From Faecalibacterium prausnitzii (GTDB taxonomy: Bacteria > Bacillota > Clostridia > Oscillospirales > Ruminococcaceae), in the NCBI GenBank assembly GCA_002313795.1, contig DCCL01000089.1, positions 1 to 10,627 of the forward strand: a stretch of 10,627 nucleotides of DNA, given 5' to 3'. The notes beneath the pieces are model-generated. The model was given only the letters and a program-made list of their open reading frames with translations, was not told the origin of the DNA and did not search any database. Position 1 is the stretch's first letter. Every line of letters begins with the position of its first letter. Position numbers and translations under genes: made by a program. Of this stretch, positions 1,630 to 10,611 are shown piece after piece.

Positions 1630-2439
1630 ATGGAAGAACGTAATGCATCCCGCCGCCCCCGCCGTGCAGCGGAAGAGGACAATAAGCCCCGCAACGAGAG
1701 CCTTGTTTATGGCAAGAACCCGGTCACTGAGCTGCTGAAGAGCGGCTCCGGTGTAGATACGGTGCTTCTGGCAGAGGGAATGGCTCCGGCGGTGGCCGCA
1801 TATTATACCGCTATGGCCAAAGAAGTCGGTGCCGCAGTCAAGCGGGTGAACCCCAACAAACTGCGCCTCATGACCGGCACGGAGAGCCATCAGGGCGTGG
1901 CCGCATTCGCCAGTGAGATCGAATATGTGTCGGTGGAAGACCTGCTGGCTGCTGCGAAAGAAAAGGGTGAGCCGCCCTTCCTGGTGCTCAGCGACGGCAT
2001 CGAAGACCCCCACAATCTGGGCGCTGTGATGCGCTCTGCCCTTCTCTGCGGGGCTCATGGCATCGTCATCCCCAAGCGGGGCGGTGCCTCTGTGACCCCC
2101 ACGGTCATCAAGTCCAGCGCCGGTGCAGCAGAGCGCCTGCCGGTGGCCCGGGTGGCTAATATCGGTGAGACCATCCGCCGCCTGAAGGAGCAGGGCGTTT
2201 TCGTCTACTGCGCCGATATGGACGGCGTGCCCCTCCGCAAGAACAACCTCACCGGCCCCATCGCACTGGTGATGGGCAGCGAGGGCAGCGGCGTCTCCCA
2301 GCTGGTCAAAAAGCTCTGCGACGGCGTGGTGCGGCTGGATATGGCCGCCCAGGGCACCGGTGTGGACAGCTTCAACGTCTCGGTGGCTGCGGGCATCATC
2401 CTGTATGAGATCCAGAGCCAGCGCGCCGCTCAGGGCTGA
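1630..2439 (+). CDS. rlmB: 23S rRNA (guanosine-2'-O)-methyltransferase RlmB-like, SpoU/TrmH family
   Basis: A SAM-dependent cytosolic SPOUT enzyme. By family it 2'-O-methylates a guanosine in the 23S rRNA P loop (G2251 in E. coli numbering). The 269 residues show a charged N-terminal extension (1-24), a substrate-binding domain from about 25 to 100 (VYGKNPVTELL), and the SpoU core. Core motifs are motif 1 DPHNLGAVMRSA (126-137; Asn129, Arg135), motif 2 IALVMGSEGSGVS (211-223; Glu218) and motif 3 VDSFNVSVAAGIILYE (245-260). RlmB is usually near 245 residues, so the extra length is the N-terminal tail. The start is supported by AAGGAG at 1618-1623, six bases upstream. The next gene begins 40 bases downstream with no terminator between, so the two are probably co-transcribed. 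TrmH-type tRNA or other rRNA 2'-O-methylation is possible within this family. Confidence 0.9.
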   Translation: MEERNASRRPRRAAEEDNKPRNESLVYGKNPVTELLKSGSGVDTVLLAEGMAPAVAAYYTAMAKEVGAAVKRVNPNKLRLMTGTESHQGVAAFASEIEYVSVEDLLAAAKEKGEPPFLVLSDGIEDPHNLGAVMRSALLCGAHGIVIPKRGGASVTPTVIKSSAGAAERLPVARVANIGETIRRLKEQGVFVYCADMDGVPLRKNNLTGPIALVMGSEGSGVSQLVKKLCDGVVRLDMAAQGTGVDSFNVSVAAGIILYEIQSQRAAQG

Positions 2440-2479
2440 GTGACCAGCGCGAAATCATCATCAGGGAGGGAAGATCAGA

Positions 2480-5158
2480 ATGCCGAAGGATGAGAAGCGC
2501 CGCACCGATCCAAAGGAAATGACGCAGGAAGAAATCAACGCGCAGGACGAGCGATTCCGCAACTTTTTCAGTACCAGCGTGGCACAGGTGCCCGCGGAGA
2601 TGAGCCGCCGGGCCAAGGAAGCAGAGGAAAAGCCCAAGAGCCTGCTGGGACGGTTATTCCATCAGAATAAGAATGAGCCGGAGAAGCCTCAGGACGAGAA
2701 GATGCCGGGGGAGGAACCCACCGGAGAGATCCAGCTGGGAGCAGAGCCGAAAGAAGAGCCTTCCGATCTGGAACTGGTTCTGACGCTGGAAGAGGAGACA
2801 AAGACTCCGGAGCCTGCAGCTCCTGCAGAGAAGCCGCAGCCGCAGCCCCCTACAGAAAAACAGCCGACGGTCCCCCAGCCGGAAAAGCCGGAACCGCAGA
2901 CGGAAAAGAAACCGGAAGAAAAAGAGCAGCCTGCTGCAGAAAAGCAGGCTCCGCATAAGAAAAAGACAGTGCAGTTCGAGCCCCGCACCCCGCAGGAGCA
3001 GTACGAGGATCGGGAGATGCAGGCTCTGAAGGCCATGCTCTTTGGCTCGAAGCAGCCGAAGCAGGAAGAACCGGCCCCCGCAGAGACGACAAAAGCTCCT
3101 GCTCCGGAAGCACCGGAGACCGTGGCCCCGCAGGCCGCGGCAGCCCAGCCGAAGCAGCCGGAAGCACCCCGGCCGGAGCTGGTATTTGCAGAGGAAAAGA
3201 CTTCTGCTCCCAAGGCAGAGCCTGCCATCCGGTTCTTTGGAGCGGCAGAGGATGAGCAGAAGCCTGAGGCTCCTGCCCGTACTACCCCGCCGAGCAAGGA
3301 CGACAGCATGAGCCTGACGCTGAATTTCTTCAGCGAAGAGGACGCAGATGCCCCGGCGGAGCCGGAAAAGGCAGCCCAGCCTGCCGCCGACACGGCGGCT
3401 CTGGAAGCACTGGAAGAAGAACCGGCAGAGAGCACTGGCCCCGAGACGCCGGAGCAGACCGGTGAGCGGCTCCATAAGATGGCCGGAACGCTGACGCTGC
3501 GCTGTGCGCTGAGCGGCGTCCTCGCTCTCATCCTGCTCCACTTTGGTCTGGCTGCAGAAAGTCTGGTGGGCCCGGTGGCCGGGCTTGACCCGGTGACGGC
3601 ACCCACCGCGTTCTATGCGGCAAATCTGCTCTTCTTTGTGCTGGAACTGGCCGTCAGCTGGCCCATCCTGCGGGATGGCCTGCAGGGTCTGCGGGGCCGT
3701 CCCAGCATGGAGACCATGCCGGCGCTGGCTGCCTGTGCTGCGCTGGTGCAGGCTGTTGTGGCCATGCTGAACGCAAAGAACTATCAGACTTCTTCCTTTA
3801 CTCTCCTCACCGGCATCGCCGCACTGGGCCTGTTCCTGGCGCTGCTGGGCGACCGGGTGCTGCTGGCCTCCATCCGGGGCGGCTTTGAGATGGCAAAGGC
3901 AGAGCCGAAGCAGCGGGGCGCTTTCCGGGCAAAGGACAAAGACCTCATCCGGATGCTGGCAAAGAATATGGAACAGAAAGACCCGTGGGTGCTGCTCAGC
4001 CGCCCCACGGAGTGGGATGCGGCTCTGGTGGAGCAGGGCTTCGGCCCCCGTGCCTGTGAGCGCCGGGCCCGCAAGACGACGTACATCCTGCTGGGCGTGG
4101 CCCTGCTGGCCGGATTCGTCTTTCTGGTGATGGGCGGCGGCGTCAACGGCGGTGCTGCGGCCCTGACAGCCGTGCTCTGCATGGGCGCACCCCTTTCCTC
4201 CACCCTCATCGCGGGCTTCGCTTCCCTGCGGCTGCAGCAGACCGCTGCGGCCTCCGGTGCAGTGGTGCCCAGCTGGGCGGCCATTGAGGAACTGGGCGGC
4301 GTGGATACGGTGCAGGCAGATGCCGAAGAGCTGTTCACGCCGGACAGTGCCATGCTGGAAGACATCCGCATCTTCAAGGGCGGCCGCATCGACCGTGCCA
4401 TCCTCTACTCGGCCAGCGTCCTCAGCCAGTGCTGCAACACCCTGAGCGGGCTGTTCCGGCAGATCATCGAAGACCGCACCGATATCCTCTACCCGGTCAA
4501 GGATCTGGAAATCCATCGGGGCCTCGGCTTCTCGGCCTGGTGCGACAACAACCGCATCCTCATCGGCACCCGCGCCTACATGGAGCAGGAAGATGTGCCC
4601 CTGCCGGATGAGGAGTATGAGAACAAGCACTCGAAGAACGGTGAACTGCAGATCCTCTATCTGGCCGTTTCCGGCAGTCTGCACGCCATGTTCGTGCTCC
4701 GGTATGTGGGCGGGCGGAACGTGGCCCGGGGTCTGGAACAGCTGCAGAAGGAGAATATCCAGCTGCTGGTGTCCTGTCAGGACCCCAGCCTGACGGCCCG
4801 TCATATCACCGACGCCTATCACCTGCCCGAAGGCATGGTGGTGATGATGGATCAGGAGCAGTGCGCCGCGCTGGACGCTGCCGCTGCGCAGCCGGACAAT
4901 GCCGACGACTGCTGCATCCTCTGCACCAAGGGGTTTGCCAGCATGACCGGCGGTCTGCGGGCTGCAGAACAGGCCCAGAATGCAGAGACGACCGCAACCA
5001 CGGTGCAGCTGGTATCCGTGTGGGTCTCGGTGGCTATTGCAGTGCTGCTGACCTATGCCGGCAGCGTGGGAATGCTGAGCGTGGCGGCGGTGCTGATGTA
5101 TCAGGCCGCATGGAGCGCCCTGAGCATTGCCGTCTGTGCCCTCAAGCAGCATAACTGA
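2480..5158 (+). CDS. Pseudo-P-type ATPase: degenerate heavy-metal (P1B) ATPase-like membrane protein with long disordered tail
   Basis: This 892-residue protein has no obvious named family. Residues 1-335 are a charged, Pro/Glu/Ala/Lys-rich tail with no predicted fold. Eight hydrophobic segments follow in a 4+2+2 pattern: about 337-358, 377-397, 413-430, 440-463; 533-551, 559-580; 841-860, 863-885. This is the P1B ATPase layout. LCMGAP (566-571) falls where the metal-binding CPC motif lies. GGVDTVQADAEELFT (606-620) aligns with the VDTVVFDKTGTLT signature: Asp614 may match the phosphorylated Asp, but KTGT is lost. GLGFSAWCDNNRILIG (681-696) resembles the nucleotide-domain G-x-G region, and VSCQDPSLTA (764-773) stands in for TGDN. 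The TGES actuator motif and GDGxND are absent. It is therefore probably not a pump; a structural or regulatory role is inference. GGAGG at 2465-2469 supports the start. It is probably co-transcribed with rlmB. Confidence 0.75.
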   Translation: MPKDEKRRTDPKEMTQEEINAQDERFRNFFSTSVAQVPAEMSRRAKEAEEKPKSLLGRLFHQNKNEPEKPQDEKMPGEEPTGEIQLGAEPKEEPSDLELVLTLEEETKTPEPAAPAEKPQPQPPTEKQPTVPQPEKPEPQTEKKPEEKEQPAAEKQAPHKKKTVQFEPRTPQEQYEDREMQALKAMLFGSKQPKQEEPAPAETTKAPAPEAPETVAPQAAAAQPKQPEAPRPELVFAEEKTSAPKAEPAIRFFGAAEDEQKPEAPARTTPPSKDDSMSLTLNFFSEEDADAPAEPEKAAQPAADTAALEALEEEPAESTGPETPEQTGERLHKMAGTLTLRCALSGVLALILLHFGLAAESLVGPVAGLDPVTAPTAFYAANLLFFVLELAVSWPILRDGLQGLRGRPSMETMPALAACAALVQAVVAMLNAKNYQTSSFTLLTGIAALGLFLALLGDRVLLASIRGGFEMAKAEPKQRGAFRAKDKDLIRMLAKNMEQKDPWVLLSRPTEWDAALVEQGFGPRACERRARKTTYILLGVALLAGFVFLVMGGGVNGGAAALTAVLCMGAPLSSTLIAGFASLRLQQTAAASGAVVPSWAAIEELGGVDTVQADAEELFTPDSAMLEDIRIFKGGRIDRAILYSASVLSQCCNTLSGLFRQIIEDRTDILYPVKDLEIHRGLGFSAWCDNNRILIGTRAYMEQEDVPLPDEEYENKHSKNGELQILYLAVSGSLHAMFVLRYVGGRNVARGLEQLQKENIQLLVSCQDPSLTARHITDAYHLPEGMVVMMDQEQCAALDAAAAQPDNADDCCILCTKGFASMTGGLRAAEQAQNAETTATTVQLVSVWVSVAIAVLLTYAGSVGMLSVAAVLMYQAAWSALSIAVCALKQHN

Positions 5159-5192
5159 GAATAATTCTCAAAATAAATAGGAATAATTCTTG
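5156..5192 (+). promoter_or_regulatory. Tandem Fur/PerR-like operator ahead of rubrerythrin
   Basis: TGAGAATAATTCTCA (5156-5170) is a perfect 7-1-7 palindrome, the architecture of Fur-family boxes (Fur TGATAATNATTATCA; PerR TTATAATNATTATAA). A second copy, TAGGAATAATTCTTG (5178-5192), shares the core GAATAATTCT and pairs at 5 of 7 positions. The centres (5163 and 5185) are 22 bp apart, about two helical turns. The second copy overlaps the -35 hexamer, as expected of a repressor. The first overlaps the stop codon of the preceding gene. The family assignment rests on motif shape and on rubrerythrin being a typical PerR target; the regulator gene is not in the window. Confidence 0.6.
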
Positions 5193-5218
5193 ATTTCCGG
5201 ACGAGATTCTGCTATACT
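5190..5218 (+). promoter_or_regulatory. Sigma-A promoter of rubrerythrin
   Basis: TTGATT (5190-5195) and TATACT (5213-5218) are 17 bases apart. The transcript would start near 5225 and has a leader of about 115 bases. A 6-bp hairpin GCACGG/CCGTGC (5290-5311) lies in the leader, upstream of the Shine-Dalgarno. Confidence 0.8.
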
Positions 5219-6163: not shown

Positions 6164-7123
6164 ATGAAGAAGATCGAACGATTCGCGGCTGCTCTGGTGC
6201 TGAGCGGTCTGCTCCTGACGGCCCCCGCCGCACAGGCCGCTACGTCGCTTTTGGGTGCATCCACGAATTTTGCGCTGGAAGTGAACGAGATGGAGCTGGA
6301 GATCACCGAAGATGACCCCCGCCCCAAGGCATATCTCTACACCGGCGGACAGAACGACTATTATTTCATCGTCTGGATGAGCAGCAACCCCACGGTGGCT
6401 ACTGTGGACGGCGATGGCCGCGTGACCGGCCGCAGCGCCGGTGAGGCCACCATCACGGCCATTACCGATAAGGGCGAGTACGCCGCCTGCAAGGTGACGG
6501 TGCGCAAGGAGAGCAAGGAGGAGGCTGCCAAGAAACCGGCTCTGGATAAAACGACCCTGAGCCTCGTCATCCAGTATAACAACGCCCATCCCACCCATAA
6601 GCTGGAACTCATCAACACCAACGGTTCCTTTATCTATGCCTATCAGTGGATGAGTAGCAACCCCGAGGTAGCAACGGTGGATTCCAATGGCGTTGTTACG
6701 GCTCAGAAGCCCGGCACGGCCACCATCACGGCGCTGGCCTCCAATGGTCAGGCCCTCCGCTGCGCCGTCACCGTCAATACCGACGTGGGCAAGGTGAGCC
6801 TGAACCGGCGTGACCTGCTGCTCCGCACAGTGGGCAGCAAAGAGACCCTGAAAGCTACCGTGGCCGTGGAAGGCGGCACGAATGTGCCCATCACCTGGGT
6901 CAGCAGCAACCCCGGCGTGGCGACGGTGGATACCAACGGCGTGGTGACGGCTGTGGCCGATGGCGAGGCCAAGATCACGGCCCTCTCGCCGGAGGGGCAG
7001 TTTGCAAGCTGCAGCGTGTTCGTGGGCATTGCCGCTGATAAGTACGACAGCGAAGAAGAACTCTCGGATGAGCTGAAGCTCCCCGACCCCCATGTGGCAG
7101 TCCGGCTGAACCGCCTGAGCTGA
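6164..7123 (+). CDS. Secreted protein with three bacterial Ig-like (BIG2) repeats
   Basis: This 319-residue exported protein has unknown function. Residues 1-25 form a signal peptide with KK start, a hydrophobic core AALVLSGLLLTA and an AQA cleavage motif. Three BIG2-type Ig-like domains follow, at about 38-113, 127-205 and 209-288. Each carries the hallmark W-x-SSNP-x-VATVD-x-x-G-x-VT (Trp71, Trp162, Trp245) and a TITA/KITA strand. Each repeat has a single Cys near its end (Cys109, Cys200, Cys283), so the mature protein has three. The acidic C-terminus (295-319) has no LPXTG signal, SLH domain or transmembrane anchor; LPDPH at 306-310 is not a sortase motif. BIG2 domains are usual in adhesins and cell-wall proteins, so a surface or matrix role is likely but unproven. 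It is transcribed alone, between its own promoter and a terminator. Confidence 0.85.
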   Translation: MKKIERFAAALVLSGLLLTAPAAQAATSLLGASTNFALEVNEMELEITEDDPRPKAYLYTGGQNDYYFIVWMSSNPTVATVDGDGRVTGRSAGEATITAITDKGEYAACKVTVRKESKEEAAKKPALDKTTLSLVIQYNNAHPTHKLELINTNGSFIYAYQWMSSNPEVATVDSNGVVTAQKPGTATITALASNGQALRCAVTVNTDVGKVSLNRRDLLLRTVGSKETLKATVAVEGGTNVPITWVSSNPGVATVDTNGVVTAVADGEAKITALSPEGQFASCSVFVGIAADKYDSEEELSDELKLPDPHVAVRLNRLS

Positions 7124-8791: not shown

Positions 8792-9418
8792 TTACAGGCC
8801 GCGGCAGAAGCCCACGGCACGGCCCTCGATCTGAATCTCTTCCAGCTGGGGGCCGGAGAACATCATGGGCGGGCAGACGGTGCTGTTGTCCGCCAGCAGC
8901 ATGACGGCATCGCCCTGACGGTGGAAGTGCTTGAGGGTGGCTTCCTCTCCAATGCGGACGGCGGCGATCTCCCCCTGCTCCACCTCGGGCTGACGGCGGA
9001 TGCAGACGATATCACCATCGCAGATGGTGGGGGACATGCTGTTGCCGTGGCAGGTGAGGGCAAAGTCTGCGTGCCACGCAGCGGGCACCCCGATGAACCG
9101 CTCGATGTTCTGTTCTGCCGTGATGGGGGTGCCGCAGGCAATAGACCCCACCAGCGGCACCCGGGCCATCTCCGGCAGCGGCTCAAAGCCTGGCGGGGGG
9201 CAGGGCAGGTCGGTCAGGCCCATGAGCCACGCCGGGGTGGTGTCCAGCGCTGCGGCCAGCTCTTCCAGCTTGGCCCGGGGCAGGTCGTTGATGCCCTTTT
9301 CCAGTTTGGTGATGGAGGATTTGGAGCGGTAGCCCATCCGGGCGGCCAGCTCTTCCTGCGAAAGTCCCAGCTCATCCCGGCGCTGCCGGATGCGGCTGGA
9401 TAGATCAGGAGCCGACAT
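8792..9418 (-). CDS. HTH-XRE / S24 peptidase repressor (phage CI or LexA-like, self-cleaving)
   Basis: A 208-residue transcriptional repressor. An XRE-type helix-turn-helix (residues 7-60; LGLSQEELAARMGYRSKSSI) is followed by an S24 peptidase domain. Catalytic Ser127 lies in CHGNSMSPTICDGDIV and Lys163 in EATLKHF, 36 residues apart as in LexA-type enzymes. The likely self-cleavage bond is Cys95-Gly96 in VGSIACGTPIT; Cys-Gly is also used by UmuD. The HTH is of phage type, not the winged helix of true LexA, so I call it CI-like. The frame stays open to 9499, but I choose Met at 9418 because it opens the domain, has GAGGG seven bases upstream, and leaves the promoter (9471-9499) outside the gene. 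RecA-stimulated cleavage after DNA damage is known for the family and inferred here. First gene of the operon with trmO and lysR, divergent from a Cro-like gene. Confidence 0.9.
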   Translation of the reverse strand: MSAPDLSSRIRQRRDELGLSQEELAARMGYRSKSSITKLEKGINDLPRAKLEELAAALDTTPAWLMGLTDLPCPPPGFEPLPEMARVPLVGSIACGTPITAEQNIERFIGVPAAWHADFALTCHGNSMSPTICDGDIVCIRRQPEVEQGEIAAVRIGEEATLKHFHRQGDAVMLLADNSTVCPPMMFSGPQLEEIQIEGRAVGFCRGL

Positions 9419-9470
9419 AAACAAGCCCTCACTTTCCCGCAAATCGCGTGTTTTGCTGTGTTCTGAGGTC

Positions 9471-9499
9471 AGTATAGCAAAAAATTTACTATAAATCAA
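9471..9499 (-). promoter_or_regulatory. Sigma-A promoter of the S24 repressor operon
   Basis: On the minus strand TTGATT (9494-9499) and TATACT (9471-9476) are 17 bases apart. The transcript would start near 9464, leaving a leader of about 45 bases to the ATG at 9418. An ATCAACTT element (9495-9502) overlaps the -35, which allows autorepression. Confidence 0.8.
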
Positions 9500-9853: not shown

Positions 9854-10150
9854 ATGACACAGGAACAGCGCCGGAAGACCAGAGAAGCCCTTGAGAGCTA
9901 CGGAAAGAAGAACTGGGTCTACGGCCCCCATAACTGGGGGTGGAAACGGGCCATCGAGCAGACAGAAGAATATTACCGCGAGACAGACCCCGGCCTGCGG
10001 GGAAGCATTCTGCAGCTGCGCTACATGGAAAAGCAGAAGCGGGACGATGTGATGGAGGCCCTGAACATCGGGTACAGCACCTACCAGAAAGCCCACAGCG
10101 ACCTGCTGAGTACTGTGGCGGTCTTTGCCGCCCACTACGGGGAACTGTAA
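9854..10150 (+). CDS. Small protein with a sigma-region-4/ArpU-like C-terminal HTH
   Basis: A 98-residue hypothetical protein. The N-terminal third is charged and aromatic (KKNWVYGPHNWGWKR, 18-32). Residues 38-60 (TEEYYRETDPGLRGSILQLR) lead into a segment (50-90) laid out like sigma-70 region 4 or the ArpU/RinA-type phage late-gene regulators: LRYMEKQKRDDVMEALNIGYS, then TYQKAHSDLL as a recognition helix. That similarity is by pattern only. It follows the Cro-like gene by 30 bases; a GGGAGG about 11 bases upstream supports the start. Being placed after a Cro-like gene, it may be a transcription factor of the same small unit. A chromosomal HTH protein unrelated to phage is the main alternative. 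Confidence 0.65.
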   Translation: MTQEQRRKTREALESYGKKNWVYGPHNWGWKRAIEQTEEYYRETDPGLRGSILQLRYMEKQKRDDVMEALNIGYSTYQKAHSDLLSTVAVFAAHYGEL

Positions 10151-10534: not shown

Positions 10535-10611
10535 GGAGGATTAGCTCAGCTGGTTAGAGCACCTGCATCACACGCAGGGGGTCTGGGGTTCGAGTCCCTA
10601 ATTCTCCACCA
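10535..10611 (+). tRNA. tRNA-Val (anticodon CAC), CCA encoded
   Basis: A complete cloverleaf can be folded. The acceptor stem GGAGGAT pairs with ATTCTCC (one G-U). The D stem is GCTC/GAGC. The anticodon stem is CCTGC/GCAGG with a seven-base loop ATCACAC, which puts CAC at positions 34-36 and reads the valine codon GUG. The T arm is TGGGG-TTCGAGT-CCCTA. Discriminator A (10608) is followed by a genomic CCA (10609-10611). Confidence 0.95.

Follow-up and report, generated by a model that had tools for sequence, protein, structure and literature searches.

A putative non-catalytic relative of CopA-type P1B ATPases encoded beside rlmB in Faecalibacterium prausnitzii and related gut bacteria

The stretch of Faecalibacterium prausnitzii DNA analysed here (contig DCCL01000089.1 of assembly GCA_002313795.1; 10,627 nucleotides, referred to as the window) encodes an 892-residue protein whose gene lies 40 bp downstream of rlmB, with rlmB directly upstream. 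Judging from its sequence, the protein belongs by descent to the P-type ATPase superfamily and lacks the motifs of the catalytic cycle, and should not be called a pump. On sequence and predicted fold, we slightly favor the view that it descends from a CopA-type P1B ATPase and has lost catalysis. The following features of the locus and of this pseudo-pump were identified, with transmembrane helices abbreviated TM:

1630..2439, + strand: rlmB, encoding 23S rRNA (guanosine-2251-2'-O)-methyltransferase (TIGR00186, 212 bits against a cut-off of 160)
2463..2470, + strand: Shine-Dalgarno-like sequence AGGGAGGG of the pseudo-pump gene, from sequence
2480..5158, + strand: pseudo-P1B ATPase gene, 892 residues (NCBIfam, profile alignment, predicted fold, family alignment)
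2480..3475, + strand: N-terminal tail, residues 1-332, rich in P, E, A and K (composition, Pfam)
3479..3874, + strand: TM1-TM4, residues 334-465 (hydropathy, AlphaFold helices, conservation)
3875..4072, + strand: A (actuator) domain remnant, residues 466-531 (profile and family alignment)
4073..4228, + strand: TM5-TM6, residues 532-583 (hydropathy, AlphaFold helices)
4187..4195, + strand: CPC site, residues 570-572, reading A-P-L (family alignment)
4301..4339, + strand: DKTGT site, residues 608-620, reading VDTVQADAEELFT (family alignment)
4340..4702, + strand: N (nucleotide-binding) domain, residues about 621-741 (structure match, family alignment)
4520..4567, + strand: G-x-G ... ILIG loop, residues 681-696 (family alignment)
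4781..4783, + strand: D768, aligned with the TGDN Asp (invariant, 119/119)
4928..4933, + strand: approximate junction of the GDGxND deletion, residues 817/818 (profile and family alignment)
4991..5143, + strand: TM7-TM8, residues 838-888 (hydropathy; copper-site residues replaced)

All residue numbers are counted from the gene start at 2480. The original prediction had set the frame at 3485..5158, of which the end stands and the start is moved to 2480, given the AGGGAGGG sequence upstream; starting at 3485 would cut off the tail of about 332 residues. The pump-like part (residues 333-892) is the portion that prediction covered. The tail has no Pfam match at 0.001, and Pfam gives no match anywhere in the full-length protein.

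A P1B match is detectable in the pump-like part by NCBIfam and by profile alignment. Residues 336-892 match CopA (E 7e-10) and TIGR01525 (E 8e-8), both far under the curated cut-offs, with PRK10671 CopA as the top match. Conversely, a profile of the family scored 23-85 bits against real pumps of the same genus, and CopA-type pumps ranked highest (72-85 and 153-156 bits, versus 23-51 for other pumps). Hydropathy agrees with the predicted 4+2+2 pattern of eight hydrophobic segments (334-367, 379-397, 412-433 and 437-465; 532-560 and 559-583; 838-874 and 868-888), which the long helices of an AlphaFold model built from 41 sequences match. The predicted fold is that of a P1B ATPase and includes the N-domain plus part of the P-domain, its best matches among solved structures being CopA and other P1B-1 ATPases (Legionella CopA 3rfu/4bbj, ATP7B, plant HMA4). 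Homology by sequence and fold covers the transmembrane core and the P and N domains. Within TM1-TM4, G400 is found in 96% of members, and D or E occupies position 411, like in P1B pumps. Where about 70 residues had been noted in place of the A domain, about 66 (466-531) are present. In a tree of 29 of the 119 family members described below and 15 pumps, the family forms one group (support 100/100) on a single long branch next to the pumps as a whole, the program warning of long branches, and CopA pumps cluster at only 69/52.

In P-type ATPases, DKTGT is the site of phosphorylation, TGES serves dephosphorylation, GDGxND binds Mg, and a Glu and a His of the N-domain contact adenine. The state of these motifs was read from an alignment of nine real pumps with 119 members, one from the window and 118 from other loci. 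The members comprise 84 loci picked by match and 35 others picked by hand blind to motifs, after removal of duplicates and of other close loci; the pumps are seven of the eight Faecalibacterium P1B pumps used in the profile alignment plus L210 and L211. Complete DKTGT, TGES, TGDN, GDGIND and CPC each occur in none of the 119 members. The altered P-motif reported at residues 608-620 is indeed VDTVQADAEELFT, and the most frequent family form of this block ends in (D/E)LFP. The Asp column (D614 in the window) holds Asp in 47 members and another state in 72, and no member has the Lys, the Gly or the final Thr of DKTGT, whereas each DKTGT position is retained in 9/9 pumps. As intact DKTGT was found neither in the 119 aligned members nor in 30 further loci, the altered motif is a fixed state of the family. 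TGES is likewise absent from all 119, although its aligned columns are the least certain since most of the A domain is gone. GDGxND, reported missing, is a gap in 119/119, and the profile alignment sets the deletion near residue 817/818.

The metal and nucleotide sites are altered as well. LCMGAP stands at 566-571 in place of CPC, as described; the CPC site retains its Pro in 91/119 members, and CPC is also absent from one of the nine real pumps (L020). The copper-site YN of TM7 and MxxSS of TM8 are replaced across the family, and the TM8 region shows Y or F at 874 (110/119), Q875 (66/119) and W878 (87%). The adenine-contact Glu and His are found in 0/119. The G-x-G ... ILIG stretch was recovered at 681-696, with G683, its second Gly, in 117/119 members and G696 in 100%. 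The string VSCQDPSLTA that was said to replace TGDN lies at 764-773 and the motif is altered; its Asp, however, is not replaced, as the invariant D768 aligns with it. Seven columns are invariant in an alignment of 60 sequences, six in the cytosolic N/P part (F659, G683, G696, Y727, G732, D768) and one in the membrane (G400). Short look-alikes of pump motifs occur off the aligned sites in six loci (L057, L061, L101, L103, L115, L168).

The ratio of nonsynonymous to synonymous substitution rates (dN/dS) is low across seven pairs of Faecalibacterium orthologues. For residues 601-800 it is 0.034-0.221, the lowest of five regions in 6/7 pairs (barely so in L005/L010 and L012/L013), and the tail is the highest region in 7/7 pairs (0.20-0.54). 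Low dN/dS, the shared motif state and the persistence beside rlmB bear out the view that this long intact frame is no decaying pseudogene, and a single damaged copy is ruled out by the low dN/dS and a motif state common to 119 members. The apparent loss of catalytic residues, the predicted retention of the fold and purifying selection are together what would be expected of a pseudoenzyme. One relative (L109, in G222) is split by an in-frame TGA.

The gene is widespread among the sampled order and family, which we take to be the GTDB Oscillospirales and Ruminococcaceae; NCBI taxonomy places the genus in the Eubacteriales and Oscillospiraceae. A collection from the species yielded 15 loci, all Faecalibacterium. 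Among same-family genomes, 190/197 matched a profile of 13 close sequences at 1e-10, and 242/245 order genomes matched a broad profile at 1e-6. Real pumps also score with the broad profile (to 1.7e-25 in the genus and 3.7e-31 elsewhere), so only E <= 4.3e-40 was counted as the gene, which gave 226/245 order genomes when tallied by eye. A new search of 67 weaker-scoring genomes returned exactly one match each at 1e-35; 30 of these loci were inspected, with pump motifs in none and part of rlmB within the 1.5 kb examined in 26. A sample of the class gave 14/291 genomes at E <= 1e-30, 12 of them order genomes already sampled. The other two (G439 and G553, presumably outside the order, with different neighbors of rlmB) carry real CopA pumps with all motifs, and as nothing else was obtained beyond the order genomes, the gene was rejected as a general feature of the class, within a search that would overlook very divergent members such as that of G408 (2.8e-19, recognized only beside rlmB).

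The most constant property of the locus is its linkage to rlmB. In the window, a simple scan of 2439-2480 found no promoter- or terminator-like site between the two genes. Of the 84 loci chosen solely for their match, 83 have a co-oriented rlmB upstream, and the one without it is at a contig end. The gap ranges from -10 to 100 bp in 73/83 loci (median 18, with six 4-bp overlaps), and larger negative gaps probably come from the choice of start codon in open reading frame (ORF) calling. The 2.7-kb gap in L075 was set aside, as the start of the gene occurs twice there, next to a stretch of Ns, which indicates a scaffold duplication. Shared strand and short gap are those of an operon, terminators having been scanned for in the window only. 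The gene is missing in 14/16 order genomes without a good rlmB match, versus 5/229 with one (Fisher p 6e-17), a test limited by the threshold for calling absence and by assembly completeness. Among the five rlmB-positive genomes without a gene call, G408 has a divergent copy beside rlmB, rlmB is at a contig end in G204, G227 and G433, and G429 has a weak rlmB match with no copy of the gene adjoining. Conversely, G289 and G308 contain the gene but give no good match to rlmB. Among the matches listed, the two genes are on separate contigs in seven genomes (G253, G333, G376, G407, G296, G320, G414), in six of which rlmB or the gene lies less than 900 bases from the low end of a contig. The commonest downstream neighbor is an EF-G-like gene (21/83 loci by clustering; L059:8079-10148 identified by profile), on the same strand in the 12 loci among the matches listed. 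A radical-SAM gene follows downstream in at least four loci (L150, identified by Pfam, L157, L203 and L206).

The family of genome G239, in which a search of 12 genomes gave a match at 1e-20 in eight, has a second P-type ATPase-like gene that precedes rlmB and is read in the same direction. DKTGT and TGES are absent from this gene in six loci (L252-L257, one cut by a contig end), whereas in G323 (L258) TGES, DKTGT and TGDG are all present. Like the pseudo-pump, it is thus a P-type ATPase-like gene without DKTGT at the rlmB locus; unlike it, the G239 protein is assigned to the P2 type by both NCBIfam and Pfam, keeps a recognizable A domain and is found in one small family only, with motifs kept in the G323 version. 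The 736-residue versions in L252, L253 and L257 have weak similarity to the G239 protein and contain a CPC string, that of L252 with a Pfam A-domain match. In L134 (G297), the second gene is known from position and similarity only. In this family rlmB is flanked by two P-type relatives, and motif-bearing and, by their motifs, dead states survive at one position.

In 32/84 relatives (e.g. L072, L080 and L082), a VDDILxE-type motif stands near the N-terminus, versus 0.2 expected. The corresponding DNA pattern was found at 13 places in 12 genomes, 11 of them at the pseudo-pump locus (G008 counted twice) and two elsewhere in G071, with one control hit and 2/12 genomes without any. Its near confinement to the locus led us to reject it as a general N-terminal tag.

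The family shares the eight-helix membrane layout, N-domain fold and domain order of CopA and other P1B-1 ATPases such as Legionella CopA, ATP7B and HMA4. It differs in the missing motifs and replaced metal sites described above, in its A-domain remnant, in a long tail in place of the HMA metal domain and in its linkage to rlmB. Among kinases and proteases, pseudoenzymes are a familiar phenomenon. Among the matches listed in open-access PubMed Central for dead or P-type-like ATPases there was no catalytically dead P1B family; the phrases pseudo or inactive P-type ATPase returned no paper in the open-access literature, and among the matches listed there no paper dealt with an rlmB-linked pseudo-pump family. 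A descriptive name for the family was absent among the matches listed (120 proteins per protein search). The nearest published precedent found is human TMEM94 (ERMA), a P-type-ATPase-like protein whose status as a pump is disputed. A 2025 structural report describes no TGES, no sign of a catalytic cycle in the conditions used, a bound lipid, ten helices and SPCA as structurally nearest (PMC12134183), and a 2026 paper argues for a Mg ATPase (PMC13322241). TMEM94 and the family have a P-type-like fold in common, TMEM94 being human and having ten helices, and shared ancestry is not claimed.

The protein probably has a job other than pumping. The match, the predicted fold and the fixed motif loss support the original proposal of P1B descent without pumping, the latter judged from sequence; the role it suggested, as a sensor, a scaffold or a partner of another ATPase, remains conjecture. 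Most invariant positions lie in the N-domain, the former nucleotide binder, which therefore probably binds something else, and the rlmB linkage together with the EF-G-like neighbors suggests, without proving it, that the protein's partner process lies in ribosome maturation or in translation. We assign a probability of roughly 0.55 to the joint reading that the protein is a dead CopA-type descendant that does not pump and acts as a membrane-anchored scaffold or sensor with a ribosomal partner process. The remodelled N-domain would bind a partner, or a small ligand held otherwise than by the classic adenine contacts, as perhaps would a remodelled TM6-TM8 pocket (Y/F874, Q875, W878). The long cytosolic tail could be a docking arm recruiting cytosolic partners, and the process served might be ribosome maturation or translation near the membrane. 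If so, the family would be a natural experiment on the uses of a pump scaffold that no longer pumps. A bolder version, which we hold doubtful, is that a copper pump has turned into a dead-enzyme membrane receptor whose disordered tail and remodelled N-domain couple 50S maturation or translation, via RlmB, to a signal from the membrane or from a small molecule; if true, the rlmB-pseudo-pump operon would be a near-universal signature of an order of gut bacteria.

Several observations weigh against the scaffold or sensor reading. The AlphaFold model has just 41 sequences behind it, and the co-absence of gene and rlmB may partly reflect incomplete assemblies. Operon neighbors need not interact, and co-expression with rlmB may be all there is. 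The VDDILxE-type motif is absent in 52/84 relatives, the window protein included, and the proteins of L141-L145 and L148 (545-548 residues) have no tail while their pump-like part still stands beside rlmB, so a tail-based scaffold is not universal. Furthermore, in L005/L006 the TM1-4 region is tighter than the P/N region (dN/dS 0.025 vs 0.034).

A function in the membrane itself seems unlikely. A passive channel, carrier or lipid-handling protein that had given up ATP use and transported via its TM6-TM8 core would explain the eight retained helices, the proline kept at the CPC site and the residues at 874, 875 and 878 standing in for copper ligands, and TMEM94, with lipid bound and no signs of the cycle, is a precedent (PMC12134183); however, the invariant columns lie in the cytosolic N/P part except for G400, and neighboring genes point to no substrate. 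Rather improbable, too, is a regulatory partner tuning an active metal or cation pump in a hetero-oligomer. The retained, predicted pump fold would suit such a role, A-domain matches above the Pfam cut-off occur in 4/4 Faecalibacterium and 17/17 order genomes checked, and the G239 family has its P-type gene, of which one genome holds an intact copy and others degenerate ones, just upstream of rlmB. The linkage, however, is to rlmB (83/84 loci), with an adjoining pump gene in that one family only, and no CPC-type pump turned up in the possibly incomplete assemblies of G341 and G373, which both have the gene; this also makes an obligate partner of a CPC-type pump (CopA) unlikely.

It is very improbable that the protein still pumps at the expense of ATP, as a P-type ATPase with unusual motifs: the invariant TGDN Asp and the 47 members with Asp at the D614 position, the window included, would fit, but 72 lack that Asp and all 119 lack TGES, GDGxND, the adenine-contact Glu and His and, within DKTGT, the Lys, Gly and final Thr. 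Least credible of all is that the gene is damaged or decaying or that the assembly is at fault, as the lost motifs and the TGA in G222 might suggest, given the low dN/dS, long open frames, common motif state and position beside rlmB in 83/84 loci.

Elsewhere in the window, two copies of GAATAATTC at 5159-5189 directly precede a promoter-like site (5190-5218) ahead of a rubrerythrin gene; the pair is possibly a peroxide-type operator, perhaps of the PerR kind. The protein encoded at 6164-7123, with the rubrerythrin gene on one side and a LysR regulator on the other, has three Big_2 (group-2 bacterial Ig-like) stretches. An S24-peptidase helix-turn-helix repressor-like gene (8792-9499) and a small ORF that matches DUF1492 below threshold (9854-10150) lie close to a tRNA-Val (10535-10611), and are possibly the remains of a mobile element.
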